Part shown: positions 18,141 to 22,497 of the stretch, piece after piece
Position numbering within the stretch: position 1 is the stretch's first letter
How the letters are laid out: each line of letters starts with the position of its first letter
NCBI GenBank assembly: GCA_030530095.1
Contig: JAUMVO010000012.1
Location: forward strand, 1 to 49,877
Source: Clostridiaceae bacterium
Lineage (GTDB): Bacteria > Bacillota > Clostridia > Oscillospirales > Acutalibacteraceae
Direction: 5' to 3'
DNA length: 49,877 nucleotides
Translations under genes and position numbers: made by a program
The notes under the pieces: generated by a model
Seen by the model: only the letters and a program-made list of their open reading frames with translations
What the model was told of the DNA's origin: nothing
The model's database searches: none

Positions 18141-18180
18141 TAAATAAAAAAACGGCTTCTAAACGAAGCCGTATATTATT
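18141..18180. terminator. Bidirectional terminator between the ZIP gene and hydF
   Basis: Hairpin ACGGCTTC (18152-18159)/GAAGCCGT (18165-18172). A seven-T tract follows on the minus strand (18151-18145) and a weaker TATTATT on the plus strand, so it best serves hydF. Confidence 0.85.
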
Positions 18181-19345
18181 AAAGTATTTCGGTGCTGCGC
18201 TCTAAAATGCCGTTGAGCTTTGCGATTACGGTGCCGTAATTCGTGAAGGCGACGCCCGCCGCCTTCGCCGCATCGACTCTCGACTTCATTTCCGCATCGC
18301 CGAGCATACAGCCGCCGCAGTGAAGCACAAGGTCATAATCGCCTAAATTGTCGGGATAGCCGTGACCGGAGGTGAATTCAAAATTCAAATCCTTTTTCGT
18401 GTATTCCTTCAGCCATCTCGGAAGCTTGACCGTGCCTATGTCCTCGCACTGACGGTGATGGGTACAGCCTTCGCAGACGAGTATTTTTGCACCGTCGGAA
18501 AGGCTGTCGAGTTTCTCTGCGCCCTCGAGCGCCGCATTGAGAAAGCCCTTGTAACGTGCAAGTATAATTGAAAACGAGGTCAGCTTAACGCTTTCGGGGA
18601 CAATCTTCATTACCTTTGCGAAAACCTGTGAATCGGTGATAACGAGCTTCGGAGGTTTTCTGAGTAAATCAAGAGTTTTTTCAAGCTCTTCGGGCTGGCA
18701 GACGAGCGCCCTTGCGTGCGCGTCGAGTATATCGCGCAGCGCCTGCTGCTGCGGCAGAATTATCCTGCCCTTCGGTGCGGATTCGTCGATGGGAATCACG
18801 AGTATTACCGTATCGCCTTTGCTTATAAAATCGGCTACAAGGCGCACTTCTTTTTTCTTAAGATTTGCCTTTTCGGCGATTTTTTCCTTGAGCGCTTCAA
18901 TTCCTTCGCCCGTAAGCGCACTGACATAAAGCTTTGACTTGTCAAAATCCTTCTTCAGATCAGCTTTATTGACTGCGACGAGATACGGAATTTCGCGCTC
19001 CCTGAATATTGCGACAAGTCCGTTTTCCGCTTCGTTGAGTGTTTCGTTTTCGGTGACGAGCACCGCGACATCGCACATATCGAGCGTCTTTTTCGCGCTC
19101 TTTACCCTCTTTTCGCCGAGTTCGCCCTCGTCGTCAATTCCGGGTGTGTCAATAATCACGACAGGACCGACAGGCAGAAGCTCCATAGCCTTTCTGACAG
19201 AATCGGTCGTGGTACCCTTAACGTCGCTGACAACAGACATTTCCTGATTAGTTATTCGGTTTACAAGCGAGCTTTTGCCCGCGTTTCTCACGCCGAAAAA
19301 GCCTATGTGCACTCTCTCGGCAGATGCGGTATCGTTAAGCGACAT
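18179..19345 (-). CDS. hydF: [FeFe]-hydrogenase H-cluster maturation GTPase HydF
   Basis: Scaffold on which the 2Fe subcluster is assembled and then handed to apo-hydrogenase. 388 aa. G-domain motifs: GVRNAGKSSL at about 18-27, the switch Thr region VKGTTTDSV, DTPGID near 70 and NKAD near 126. The C-terminal cluster ligands CTHHRQC (around 290) and HCGGCM (near 340) match HydF. GAGGT precedes the ATG by a few bases and the gap to hydG is 9 nt. No hydrogenase structural gene is in the window. Confidence 0.96.
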   Translation of the reverse strand: MSLNDTASAERVHIGFFGVRNAGKSSLVNRITNQEMSVVSDVKGTTTDSVRKAMELLPVGPVVIIDTPGIDDEGELGEKRVKSAKKTLDMCDVAVLVTENETLNEAENGLVAIFREREIPYLVAVNKADLKKDFDKSKLYVSALTGEGIEALKEKIAEKANLKKKEVRLVADFISKGDTVILVIPIDESAPKGRIILPQQQALRDILDAHARALVCQPEELEKTLDLLRKPPKLVITDSQVFAKVMKIVPESVKLTSFSIILARYKGFLNAALEGAEKLDSLSDGAKILVCEGCTHHRQCEDIGTVKLPRWLKEYTKKDLNFEFTSGHGYPDNLGDYDLVLHCGGCMLGDAEMKSRVDAAKAAGVAFTNYGTVIAKLNGILERSTEIL

Positions 19346-19354
19346 AATTACCTC

Positions 19355-20773
19355 TTAAAACCTGAAATCACGGTTGCCCTGCTCGATAAGTCCGAGTCTT
19401 TCACGAACTATCTCGCGTACCTTTTCCTTCGGGATATTGCCTATTTCCTTCTCAATCATTTCTTCGCCTATTCTGCGCGTGTCCTCACTTGCGTAGTCGA
19501 TAAGGAATTCCTTTAAGGTCATAAGTGCGTTCGGGTGACAGCAGTTCTGAATCTGTCCCGATTTACAAAGCGACATAAAGCGGTCGCCCGTTCTTCCCTC
19601 ACGGTAGCAGGCGGTACAGAACGACGGAATATATCCCGTTCTCATAAGCCAGTTGACAACCTCGTCAAGGGTTCTGTTGTCGGACACGTCAAACTGCTCG
19701 GTGTCGTGCGGACGCTCTGCCTCGGCATAGCCGCCTACGGACGTTCTCGAGCCGCCGCTTATCTGGCTGACGCCCAGACGTATAATTTTCGCTCTTACCT
19801 CGGGAGTCTCTCTCGTCGAGATAATCATACCCGTATAGGGAACGGCAATTCTGATACACGCCGCTATCTTGCAGAACATATCGTCGGAAAGCGAGTTGTC
19901 AAAATCGTCGGGGTCAATATCGTCGGCGGGCTTTACTCTCGGTACGCTGATAGTATGCGGTCCAACACCGTGAACGGCTTCAAGGTGCTCGGCGTGCATA
20001 AGCAGTCCCGCGAATTCATAGCGGTAGTTGTCAAGTCCGAACAGTACACCGCAGCCTACGTCGTCAATGCCGCCCTCCATCGCTCTGTCCATAGCCTCGG
20101 TATGATAGCAATAGTCGTGCTTCGGGCCTGTCGGATGAAGGTACTCGTAGTTCTTTCTGTTATAAGTTTCCTGGAAAAGAATATACGTGCCTATTCCCGC
20201 GTCCTTGAGCTTTTTATAGTTTTCGACGGTAGTAGCCGCAATATTTACGTTGACACGGCGGATTGCGCCGTTTTTGTGCTTGATAGAGTAAATCGTATTA
20301 ATACACTCGAGAATGTACTCAATGGGATTGTTGACGGGGTCCTCGCCCGCTTCGATGGCAAGGCGCTTGTGTCCCATATCCTGAAGGGCGATAACCTCCT
20401 TTGCAACCTCTTCCTGAGTAAGCTTCTTTCTCGGAATGTGCTTGTTTTTCAAGTGATACGGACAGTAAAGACAGCCGTTTACGCAGTAATTCGAAAGGTA
20501 AAGCGGCGCAAACAGAACAATTCTGTTGCCGTAAAAATCCTTCTTAATCTGCTCGGCAAGGTCATAAATCCTCTTCACCGTCTCCTCGTCGTCGCAGGCG
20601 AGAAGCACGCTCGCCTCGCGGTGGGAAAGTCCCTTGCGAAGCTCCGCTTTTTCAAGGATTGCGTTGACAACCTCTTTGTTGTCCTTGTTTTCGTCGGCAT
20701 ATTTGAGAGTATCAAGGATTTCCTCATCGCTGATAAACTCGTCAGCCTTCATGCTTTTTACATCATACTTCAT
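19355..20773 (-). CDS. hydG: Radical SAM tyrosine lyase HydG
   Basis: Cleaves tyrosine to p-cresol and dehydroglycine and makes the CO and CN ligands of the H-cluster. 472 aa. Radical-SAM cysteines C97, C101, C104 (NYCVNGCLYC). The C-terminal part carries the second-cluster cysteines, CTACYREGRTGDRFM followed by NCCHPNAL, which distinguish HydG from ThiH. Its start overlaps the hydE stop by 11 nt, with GAGGAG upstream inside hydE, so the two should be co-translated. Confidence 0.97.
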   Translation of the reverse strand: MKYDVKSMKADEFISDEEILDTLKYADENKDNKEVVNAILEKAELRKGLSHREASVLLACDDEETVKRIYDLAEQIKKDFYGNRIVLFAPLYLSNYCVNGCLYCPYHLKNKHIPRKKLTQEEVAKEVIALQDMGHKRLAIEAGEDPVNNPIEYILECINTIYSIKHKNGAIRRVNVNIAATTVENYKKLKDAGIGTYILFQETYNRKNYEYLHPTGPKHDYCYHTEAMDRAMEGGIDDVGCGVLFGLDNYRYEFAGLLMHAEHLEAVHGVGPHTISVPRVKPADDIDPDDFDNSLSDDMFCKIAACIRIAVPYTGMIISTRETPEVRAKIIRLGVSQISGGSRTSVGGYAEAERPHDTEQFDVSDNRTLDEVVNWLMRTGYIPSFCTACYREGRTGDRFMSLCKSGQIQNCCHPNALMTLKEFLIDYASEDTRRIGEEMIEKEIGNIPKEKVREIVRERLGLIEQGNRDFRF

Positions 20774-21806
20774 TTTTATAATCTCCTCTGTCGGTCACTA
20801 TTTCGTGACCGGTAGTTTTAATACGGTTTTTTAAGCACTCCACGCACTGCGCGGCTTCCTCGCCGGTGCAGATTTTGTTGTCGTAGAGCATATATTTCCC
20901 TCTCACGCTGACGGGTGAAAGATTAGGCATTAGGACGTTTGCGCCAGCGAGTATGCCCTTTTCCCTGCCCTTTGCGTCGAGCGTGCCGAGCGCGGTTGTC
21001 GCGGGAAGCAGCACCCTCGGCAAAGTAAGTCGTATAAGCGAGAGCATAAACAGCGTCTTTTCGGCGCTCCCGCTTTTGAAATCGCAGAAGGGCGTGTCCT
21101 TATGGGTGATAAACGGACCTATGCCGACCATCTGCGGATTAACCTTTTTGAGAAATGCGAATTCGTTTGCAAGGTCACGGTCGGTCTGATACGGTGAGCC
21201 TACCATAAAGCCGACGCCGACCTGATAGCCGAAGCGCTTCAGGTCATCAATACAGCGAAGGCGGTTGTCAAAGCTCATCGAGTCGGGATGAAGCTTTCCG
21301 TAATGCTCACGGTTTGCCGTTTCGTGGCGCAGCAGATATCTGTCTGCGCCTGCATCTTTAAGCCGTTTAAGGCTGTCCGTGCTTCTCTCGCCTAAGGAAA
21401 GCGTAACTGCACAATCGGGATGGCGACGTTTGATTTCCTTAATTACAAATTCGAAATCGTCATCCGTATAGTGCGTGTCCTCGCCGCCCTGCAAAACAAA
21501 GGTACGAAAGCCCAGCTCGTAGCCGCTGTCGGCGCAGGAAACGATTTCGTCGGGTGTCAGCCTGTAGCGCTCAATATTCTTATTACCCGCGCGGATTCCG
21601 CAGTAATAGCAGTTGTTGCGGCAGTAGTTTGAAAACTCGATAAGTCCCCTGACAAAAACCTTGTTGCCGTAGTATTTCTTCTTGGTTTCCACGGCTCTTT
21701 GAGCAGCATAATCGCTTATCTGCTTATAGTTTTCAATCAGCGTAAGGTACTCGTCAGCTGTCAAAAAGCTGTCCGCTTCAAGTCGGTCGATTAACGCCTT
21801 ATACAT
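20763..21806 (-). CDS. hydE: [FeFe]-hydrogenase H-cluster radical SAM maturase HydE
   Basis: Radical SAM enzyme of the 2Fe-subcluster pathway, working with HydG and HydF. About 347 aa. Radical-SAM cysteines C62, C66, C69 (NYCRNNCYYCG) lie almost exactly where known HydE enzymes have them. The start is placed at ATG 21806 (MYKALIDRLE), which overlaps the end of the preceding ACT-domain gene by 8 nt and gives normal length; the longer frame adds eleven codons inside that gene. Confidence 0.95.
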   Translation of the reverse strand: MYKALIDRLEADSFLTADEYLTLIENYKQISDYAAQRAVETKKKYYGNKVFVRGLIEFSNYCRNNCYYCGIRAGNKNIERYRLTPDEIVSCADSGYELGFRTFVLQGGEDTHYTDDDFEFVIKEIKRRHPDCAVTLSLGERSTDSLKRLKDAGADRYLLRHETANREHYGKLHPDSMSFDNRLRCIDDLKRFGYQVGVGFMVGSPYQTDRDLANEFAFLKKVNPQMVGIGPFITHKDTPFCDFKSGSAEKTLFMLSLIRLTLPRVLLPATTALGTLDAKGREKGILAGANVLMPNLSPVSVRGKYMLYDNKICTGEEAAQCVECLKNRIKTTGHEIVTDRGDYKNEV

Positions 21807-22044
21807 TACTGAAAGCCGCCTTGGATGAAACGCCGTCAAGCCGTCCTATTTTACCGCAGAGGGTATTGATTTCGTTCTGCGGCGCGTCAATGACAATGGT
21901 GATACAGTTGATATTCTTTTCGTGATACGGAATGCCCATTCTGCCTATGATATTCTCGCCGTATTCCGAGAGAATGGAATTAAGCTCGGTAACGCTTCCG
22001 GTATTCTCGACTATGATTGCGATTACAGCAACTCTTGTTTCCAT
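21799..22044 (-). CDS. TM1266-family ACT-domain protein (iron-only hydrogenase system regulator)
   Basis: About 81 aa, a single ACT-like domain: METRVAVIAIIVEN forms the first strand, followed by the GSVTELNSILSEYG helix and INCITIVIDAP. This matches the small family known as putative regulators of iron-only hydrogenase systems, usually found next to hydE/hydF/hydG, as here. The actual ligand or target is not established. The start is ATG 22044, because GGAGG lies 4-5 nt before it; the longer frame would start inside the leader terminator. Confidence 0.88.
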   Translation of the reverse strand: METRVAVIAIIVENTGSVTELNSILSEYGENIIGRMGIPYHEKNINCITIVIDAPQNEINTLCGKIGRLDGVSSKAAFSNV

Positions 22045-22140
22045 AATTCCTCCAAAATAAAAAACTGCGCCCTGAGAGCGCAGTAATACCGTCAAAATTA
22101 CTTATAGCGCTTTCGGTCAGATAAATCTTTCCGTCAGGTT
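22045..22140 (-). promoter_or_regulatory. Leader RNA with terminator/antiterminator folds upstream of the hyd maturation operon
   Basis: A 96-nt leader follows the promoter. It ends in a textbook terminator (arms ACTGCGC at 22084-22078 and GCGCAGT at 22070-22064, then TTTTTTATTTT) placed directly before the GGAGG of the first gene. An alternative stem pairs 22111-22107 with 22081-22077 and 22102-22097 with 22087-22082, which captures the promoter-proximal arm of the terminator. TGACGG/TGACCG occurs three times in the leader, once in the antiterminator loop, where CGGT could also pair with an upstream ACCG. I do not recognise a known riboswitch class. Confidence 0.72.
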
Positions 22141-22146
22141 GTTAAT

Positions 22147-22175
22147 ATTTTAACACAAAGTCTTAATAATTGCAA
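22147..22175 (-). promoter_or_regulatory. Promoter of the TM1266-hydE-hydG-hydF operon
   Basis: Minus strand TTGCAA (22175-22170), 17 bp, TAAAAT (22152-22147). The start point would fall near 22140. Confidence 0.72.
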
Positions 22176-22242: not shown

Positions 22243-22497
22243 TTGAGATATACGGTTGAAGAACGCGCAGTTGAATTAGGCGAGTACATAGTTGAAAACA
22301 ACGCCACCGTCAGAGCGGCGGCGAAGCAATTCGGAATAAGTAAATCGACTGTCCACATGGACGTTTCCGAAAGACTGAAAAGAGCAAATCCCGCGCTCTT
22401 CAGTCAGGTGCGGCACGTGCTCGACGTCAATAAATCCGAACGCCATATACGCGGCGGAAAAGCGACAAGGGAAAAATACTTATTGATGAAAAAGTGA
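22243..22497 (+). CDS. spoIIID: Sporulation transcriptional regulator SpoIIID
   Basis: Small DNA-binding protein of the mother-cell sporulation programme, acting with sigma-E to switch genes on or off. 84 aa, the usual size. The helix-turn-helix spans about residues 23-45 (ATVRAAAKQFGISKSTVHMD), and RYTVEERAVELGEYI at the front and the basic tail RGGKATREKYL fit the family. It starts with TTG (22243) preceded by GGAGG at 8 nt. It is monocistronic, with a terminator right at its stop codon. Confidence 0.95.
   Translation: MRYTVEERAVELGEYIVENNATVRAAAKQFGISKSTVHMDVSERLKRANPALFSQVRHVLDVNKSERHIRGGKATREKYLLMKK

Follow-up and report, generated by a model that had tools for sequence, protein, structure and literature searches.

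The products of hydE, hydG and hydF build the [FeFe]-hydrogenase cofactor. Among leader RNAs that switch bacterial operons, the RAT hairpin of the LicT/SacT systems is about 30 nt long and has two internal loops that are read by a symmetric protein dimer; it overlaps an arm of the terminator, and protein binding antiterminates. The riboswitch classes of Rfam 15 share with the element described below the layout of a leader RNA with a terminator or Shine-Dalgarno (SD) output. In the pyr operon of Bacillus subtilis, according to PMC4347634, an upstream structure stabilized by the PyrR protein is an anti-antiterminator, and binding leads to termination. In the literature searched we found little on the control of [FeFe]-hydrogenase cofactor building. 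In its section on the redox factor Rex, PMC8457756 tabulates Clostridium thermocellum hydG together with a "putative iron-only hydrogenase system transcriptional regulator", so promoter-level control may exist too. Thermotoga maritima TM1266 (2NZC; PF21699, TIGR03959), of the same family and fold as the product of the first gene of the operon studied here, is named "iron-only hydrogenase system putative regulator"; no mechanism behind this name turned up in the literature searched.

The window analyzed is a stretch of 49,877 nt from a Clostridiaceae bacterium (contig JAUMVO010000012.1). On its minus strand, a 98-nt leader (22142-22045) precedes TM1266-hydE-hydG-hydF and, from our reading of the sequence, carries a promoter-like site, a terminator and a competing stem. 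The features are distributed as follows:

22147-22175, minus strand: promoter-like site TTGCAA-17-TAAAAT, with TG preceding the second hexamer (9 of 12 matches; consensus match only)
22109-22139, minus strand: conserved hairpin core C-UGA-CGG-AAA-GA-UUUA-UC-UGA-CCG-AAA-G, candidate binding site and anti-antiterminator (models R1 and R2, covariation in relatives)
22107-22111, minus strand: antiterminator 5' arm AGCGC, pairing with 22081-22077 and sharing with the hairpin core its three 3'-terminal nucleotides, 22111-22109 (sequence, fold series, swap test over relatives)
22097-22102, minus strand: second 5' segment of the antiterminator, pairing with 22087-22082 (sequence and fold series, window only)
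22064-22084, minus strand: intrinsic terminator hairpin ACTGCGCTC-TCA-GGGCGCAGT, 9 pairs, then a U tract (-13.8 kcal/mol)
22049-22053, minus strand: SD sequence GGAGG of the TM1266 gene (sequence)
21802-22044, minus strand: TM1266-family ACT-fold protein, candidate RNA-binding regulator (PF21699, E 2.1e-29; TIGR03959 over cut-off; model pLDDT 95.6)
20763-21809, minus strand: hydE, radical SAM (PF04055; TIGR03956 over cut-off here)
19355-20773, minus strand: hydG (PF06968, PF04055; TIGR03955 over cut-off)
18179-19345, minus strand: hydF (PF18133, PF18128; TIGR03918 over cut-off)

The terminator adjoins GGAGG and the ATG at 22044. The promoter and the terminator ending near the first ribosome site had been reported in the initial annotation, and both are present. 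The same reading had counted TGACGG/TGACCG three times; the first two occurrences turn out to be the strands of the conserved hairpin, whereas the third lies in the linker, and by eye the linkers read in relatives differ. For the same reason a pseudoknot that had been proposed between a loop CGGT and an upstream ACCG is abandoned: among the leaders read it is not conserved. The element missed at that stage is the 31-nt hairpin core itself (22139-22109), in which CUGACGGAAAG pairs with CUGACCGAAAG.

Considered as a single sequence, the window leader does not have an unusual fold (z -1.14), and a 35-nt piece with the core reaches -5.3 kcal/mol (z -1.49), the bare hairpin being weak. The case for the element therefore rests on relatives. 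The same 11 kb contain 27 promoter-like and 24 terminator-like sites, compared to 11.0 and 14.6 in shuffles. It is conservation, i.e. the recurrence of the core with covariation in relatives, that raises this leader above chance. A leader-peptide attenuator was discarded, as no short reading frame lies inside the window leader: there is no ATG or GTG within 22142-22045, and a TTG frame from 22095, seen in the window only, continues into TM1266. The leader is flanked by a divergent SpoIIID-like gene (22243-22497, plus strand; PF12116, E 2.8e-37), which in the ORF list has a TTG start, placed some 70 bp away from the promoter-like site. Just past hydF, on the opposite strand, a ZIP-family metal transporter (PF02535; 17357-18130, plus strand) is a candidate link to iron supply.

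The upstream regions of relatives were aligned and checked for covariation, as the initial annotation had suggested, and the core does recur with covariation. TM1266 was found in 42 of 98 relatives' genomes, and upstream of 30 of these loci we read by eye a shared block (C-UGA-C..., a hairpin, then ...UGA..G-AAA-G), often close behind a -10-like box. Twenty-six cores were marked; 20 of them, the window included, were aligned as A2 and gave the covariance model R1, near-duplicates and the long-loop L003 and L018 being left out. R2 is a refined model whose training included 15 R1 matches from TM1266 upstream regions. The window core scores 29.2 bits with R1 (E 5.1e-4 over the whole genome), its leader being itself among the 20 training leaders, and 28.9 bits with R2, for which the window has no other match up to E 5. 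The consensus is C-UGA-CNN(N)-RAA-hairpin-UGA-(N)NNG-RAA-G, i.e. two similar internal loops, UGA opposite RAA, in a pseudo-dyad relation. In the 125 cores aligned, UGA forms the outer loop in 104, opposite AAA (96) or GAA (22). Conservation is lower at the inner loop, where, on the other strand, UGA is read in 60 cores, opposite AAA (43) or GAA (38).

Double-change cells number 30 in A2 compared to 8.2 in shuffled alignments, 174 in A3 compared to 49.4 (sd 11.3), and 84 in A5, made from loci fetched by protein, compared to 26.6. In A3, 93% of cells are paired, against at most 52% in slid versions. In each of A2, A3 and A5, none of the 500 shuffles and no slid version equals the real alignment in cells paired, double-change cells or covariation score. 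Two of the five measures are weak: in A2, A3 and A5 respectively, 181, 116 and 42 of 500 shuffles reached the observed number of pairs with changes on both sides, and 176, 17 and 15 reached that of further pair types. A3 and A5 were fitted to the model, so the structure is favoured in their statistics; the source of A5 is a set of 80 TM1266 loci, of which at least three, to go by their lengths, are contigs already used. The leader is a real conserved attenuator RNA, of a class absent from Rfam 15, and relatives bear out the attenuator-type leader first annotated ahead of the H-cluster maturation operon. Membership of a known Rfam 15 class was rejected: no curated model matches at the motif in the window or in 15 related loci (E up to 5), in keeping with the initial annotation, which had recognized no described class. 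Over the window, the Rfam 15 scan gave only two tRNAs at gathering level. The element is undescribed in the literature searched, with an earlier mention possible among the 224 RNAs of the Weinberg 2017 list; the main text of PMC8632094, PMC11109978 and PMC7266159 contains no hydrogenase, hydE, hydG or TM1266 term.

We then considered how the hairpin relates to the expression signals. The competing stem given in the initial annotation reappears in a fold series of growing window transcripts, at -19.3 kcal/mol for 73-79 nt, and the value is -19.6 kcal/mol once the terminator is complete at 82 nt; in the window sequence, the hairpin 5' CCUGA is also paired in the antiterminator state, to the terminator's UCAGG. 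Judged by a relaxed test, a terminator lies downstream of 116 of 122 sites, against 55-65 in shuffles. A swap test set the last ten hairpin nucleotides plus six more against the terminator 5' arm and loop. Over 110 pairs, the duplex of a tail with its own terminator averages -11.1 kcal/mol compared to -8.5 for swapped ones, none of 2000 permutations is as low as the own mean, and 80% of tails beat the mean of other tails on their own terminator. The window tail ranks eleventh of 110 for its terminator, and the window hairpin shares only three nucleotides with the antiterminator. An intrinsic terminator preceding the first gene, a competing antiterminator that consumes its 5' arm, and an upstream hairpin that sequesters the antiterminator 5' strand (computed over 110 leaders; 3 nt in the window) are thus found together, as in attenuators working like those of the PyrR type. 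The pairing of a covarying conserved RNA domain with an expression platform, which characterizes riboswitches as a kind, is found as well.

A second geometry exists at hydG. Eight of the nine non-leader R2 matches in the named set end 12-19 nt upstream of the hydG start codon and run into AAGGA-type SD sequences. Five further copies of this kind were read, which brings the total to 13 loci; they include G287, where the hydG site is the sole motif copy as far as seen. The R2 scan gives no such site in the window. A constitutive partial terminator acting without ligand would agree with the non-significant single-sequence folds of the window, but it leaves the covariation, the conserved loops and the copies running into the hydG SD sequence unaccounted for, and we hold it to be very improbable.

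The terminator and SD arrangements both suggest that a bound hairpin means genes off, a sign of control that we infer from geometry. Our main reading, to which we give a probability of slightly above one half, is that the leader is a PyrR-like attenuator whose hairpin is held by TM1266, binding turning the operon off. A partner holding the hairpin 22139-22109 would prevent its 3' end from pairing with the terminator 5' arm; the terminator 22084-22064 would then form, and TM1266-hydE-hydG-hydF would be off. A free hairpin would instead let the antiterminator form (22111-22107/22081-22077 plus 22102-22097/22087-22082), and the operon would be read. At the hydG SD copies, binding would block translation. 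The partner would most likely be the TM1266 protein, with its ACT/NikR-type regulatory fold, whose own symmetry may recognize the two similar loops; it would feed back on its own operon and might respond to a small ligand connected with iron or with H-cluster supply.

As in PyrR attenuators, the candidate regulator is encoded within the controlled operon. The system differs from them in its hairpin, with the pair of similar UGA/RAA loops, in its unrelated candidate protein, and in the copies that overlap the SD sequence at hydG. By analogy, it would work like a PyrR anti-antiterminator while standing outside the PyrR family, which was set apart on the grounds that there is no Rfam match and that hyd rather than pyr genes lie downstream. 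The hairpin resembles the LicT/SacT RAT in its length, about 30 nt, and in its two internal loops, a symmetric-dimer reader being here only a candidate. Unlike the RAT, the hairpin 22139-22109 is placed upstream of the terminator 22084-22064 and does not overlap its 5' arm in the window; this geometry implies termination on binding, and a RAT-type antiterminator was rejected.

The TM1266 protein is 80 residues long and has no DNA-binding domain, so a non-DNA target is expected. Its model (pLDDT 95.6) has the ferredoxin-like strand/helix order of ACT domains, and its best matches among solved structures are T. maritima TM1266 (2NZC) and the regulatory domains of NikR. A comparison of 18 sequences gives twelve invariant columns, of which four are basic (R4, R35, K65, K75). 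The domain also occurs fused to an ABC ATPase, which suggests ligand sensing. To our knowledge, no ACT domain is known to bind RNA; if the main reading is true, the ACT fold would acquire such a role, and the long-named, unexplained "hydrogenase system regulator" would gain a mechanism.

The distribution of the motif was compared with those of TM1266 and HydG. At E up to 0.5, the 80 TM1266 loci give 45 R1 matches in 43 loci and 50 R2 matches in 44 loci, none on the opposite strand (50 of 50 on the TM1266 strand for R2). These R2 matches are distributed as follows: 41 upstream of TM1266, eight before hydG, and one (L246) downstream of TM1266. Named carriers include Sporobacter termitidis, Massilioclostridium coli, Agrilactobacillus yilanensis and Mobilitalea sibirica.

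A class set of 291 genomes was also scanned; 176 of them have TM1266 (E up to 1e-5) and 184 have HydG (E up to 1e-90). Counting only matches with a hyd or TM1266 gene context, the genome-wide scan places the motif in 30 of 144 genomes with both proteins, 7 of 32 with TM1266 only, 1 of 40 with HydG only, and 0 of 75 with neither; within HydG genomes, the association of motif and TM1266 gives a Fisher p of 0.0038, with relatedness uncontrolled. Of 54 genomes matching at E up to 0.1, 38 were kept; 16 were discarded as chance, a judgement made from sequences read or from coordinates alone; no hyd gene was seen at the R1 matches L053, L057, L059, L060, L078, L079 and L081. With local scans added, the motif genomes become 45, 7, 2 and 0, from an unequal effort: 60 TM1266 upstream regions (57 genomes) against 36 hydG upstream regions of genomes without TM1266. 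The 60 regions, which have no adjacent genome-wide match, yield 15 R1 matches, on which R2 was then trained, and 21 R2 matches (one too far upstream), and many TM1266 genes have no detectable motif. The 36 hydG regions include five from the relatives set and cover 31 of the 40 class genomes with HydG only, some being shortened by contig ends; of the remainder, G287 was read in L113 and eight lie outside the local scan. At E up to 1, R1 matches there in place in L128, inside hydG in L141, on the other strand in L145 and L156, and 1.4 kb upstream in L135 (E 0.89); R2 retains only L128 and L141. Because filtering is stricter whenever a scan covers more than 40 genomes, absences in such scans are weak. 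A phylum scan with R2 matched 1 of 249 genomes (L308, with no recognized hyd gene) but missed the known-positive window genome, and says nothing on absence. A phage search gave no match.

Individual genomes follow the same tendency. Among the 98 relatives, the motif stands beside hydG in none of the five genomes with HydG only, and beside TM1266 in four of the six with TM1266 only; it was not found in G074 and G082, which have TM1266 without HydG. In genus g145, G244 has TM1266 and the motif, and three others (G199, G348, G382) have HydG but neither of these. In G066, G090 and G209 the motif lies on the hydG operon and TM1266 elsewhere, at loci (L164-L166) with no R1 or R2 match. TM1266 is encoded by 14 of 15 hand-picked motif genomes, nine of them picked because the operon showed no TM1266. 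Two genomes without TM1266 have the motif before hydG. One, G111 (L128), is probably a contig-end case: its hydG is near a contig end, and TM1266 lies just downstream of hydG in two genomes of the same genus. The other, G287 (93% complete), remains an exception to TM1266 dependence.

The motif thus tracks TM1266 rather than HydG, a pattern that fits a trans-acting regulator and its site and falls short of proving contact. Since it is nearly confined to TM1266-encoding genomes, TM1266 is the likely partner and the best-supported hypothesis, most likely on comparative grounds, for what reads the hairpin. Among the effectors first proposed, the best fit is the ACT protein itself, as the motif is more closely tied to TM1266 than to HydG; SAM has no support and was rejected as ligand, the motif also preceding operons of an aspartase-like gene and hydF, hydF-first operons, and operons of TM1266 and a transporter. 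A HydG product as the only link was discarded too, given the 7 of 32 class genomes with TM1266 and motif but no HydG. Co-occurrence could also arise if a different RNA-binding protein read the hairpin, TM1266 acting upstream or correlating historically, and the many TM1266 genes without detectable motif count in favour of this. Against this, TM1266 itself is the commonest gene behind the motif (22 of the 26 R1 matches at E <0.01 in relatives precede it, mostly training sequences), and an unsystematic reading of the loci brought no other regulator gene to notice beside it; we find such a protein improbable.

The main rival is a small-molecule riboswitch: the hairpin itself would bind a metabolite or ion of H-cluster supply (e.g. 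a maturation intermediate or some form of iron), perhaps one at each of the two similar loops, TM1266 merely belonging to the same regulon. Compact conserved loops with covarying helices, the riboswitch-like layout with terminator or SD outputs, the TM1266 genes without motif and the tandem copies in several leaders can all be read this way. These copies were seen by eye in L010, L043, L050 and L262, and by R1 in L221 (E 0.01 and 0.26); tandem hairpins resemble tandem riboswitches or cooperative protein sites. Yet the motif is nearly confined to genomes with TM1266, although those with HydG and no TM1266 run the same chemistry, and it is kept where no HydE, HydF or HydG exceeds the cut-off, which makes a ligand produced in that cell by these enzymes less likely. 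We regard a riboswitch as a possibility to be taken seriously, clearly behind attenuation by TM1266.

Beyond TM1266-hydE-hydG-hydF, the motif precedes GNAT-like-hydG-hydF (L103, L104), hydG-hydF-hydE (L099), hydE-hydF (L100), hydF-hydE (L101) and aspartase-like-hydF (L098), the aspartase and GNAT labels being assigned from sequence by eye. It also precedes importer operons: TM1266-FecCD-ATPase-binding protein in L088 and, next to a PF02906 gene, TM1266-ECF substrate component in L096 and L097; the ECF match is of 31.0 bits for a cut-off of 30.7. Seven genomes given as 96-99% complete (G006, G003, G007, G010 of the window's genus, G206, G152, G228) have matches to the [FeFe]-hydrogenase large domain (PF02906) and no HydE, HydF or HydG over curated cut-offs; in G006, G206, G152 and G228, TM1266 and the motif precede importer genes.

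What appears to be new here, from comparison of genomes, is a widespread RNA element at the H-cluster operon with a specific candidate protein partner, TM1266. If this is true, the motif would mark additional H-cluster supply genes in genomes, including importers and a nitrogenase-like cluster. In a bolder and rather doubtful extension, TM1266 would found a class of RNA-binding ACT-domain regulators: it would sense an iron or H-cluster precursor, clamp the hairpin and shut down the H-cluster operon at transcription and hydG at translation, and its regulon would reach FecCD-type and ECF importers where [FeFe]-hydrogenase-like genes occur without HydE, HydF and HydG, possibly importing a cofactor precursor.

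A last type of operon was read in L091, L090 and L089 (genomes G097, G076 and G089). Its order is TM1266, FecCD permease, a fusion of ABC ATPase and TM1266 domain, HydE (absent in L089), a NifH-like protein, two nitrogenase-component-1-like proteins and Peripla_BP_2; family searches were made on L091 only, and similar parts were seen by eye in L101 and L123. The three genomes have HydF and a PF02906 protein without HydG, and this operon is perhaps a HydG-independent route or a means of precursor import.
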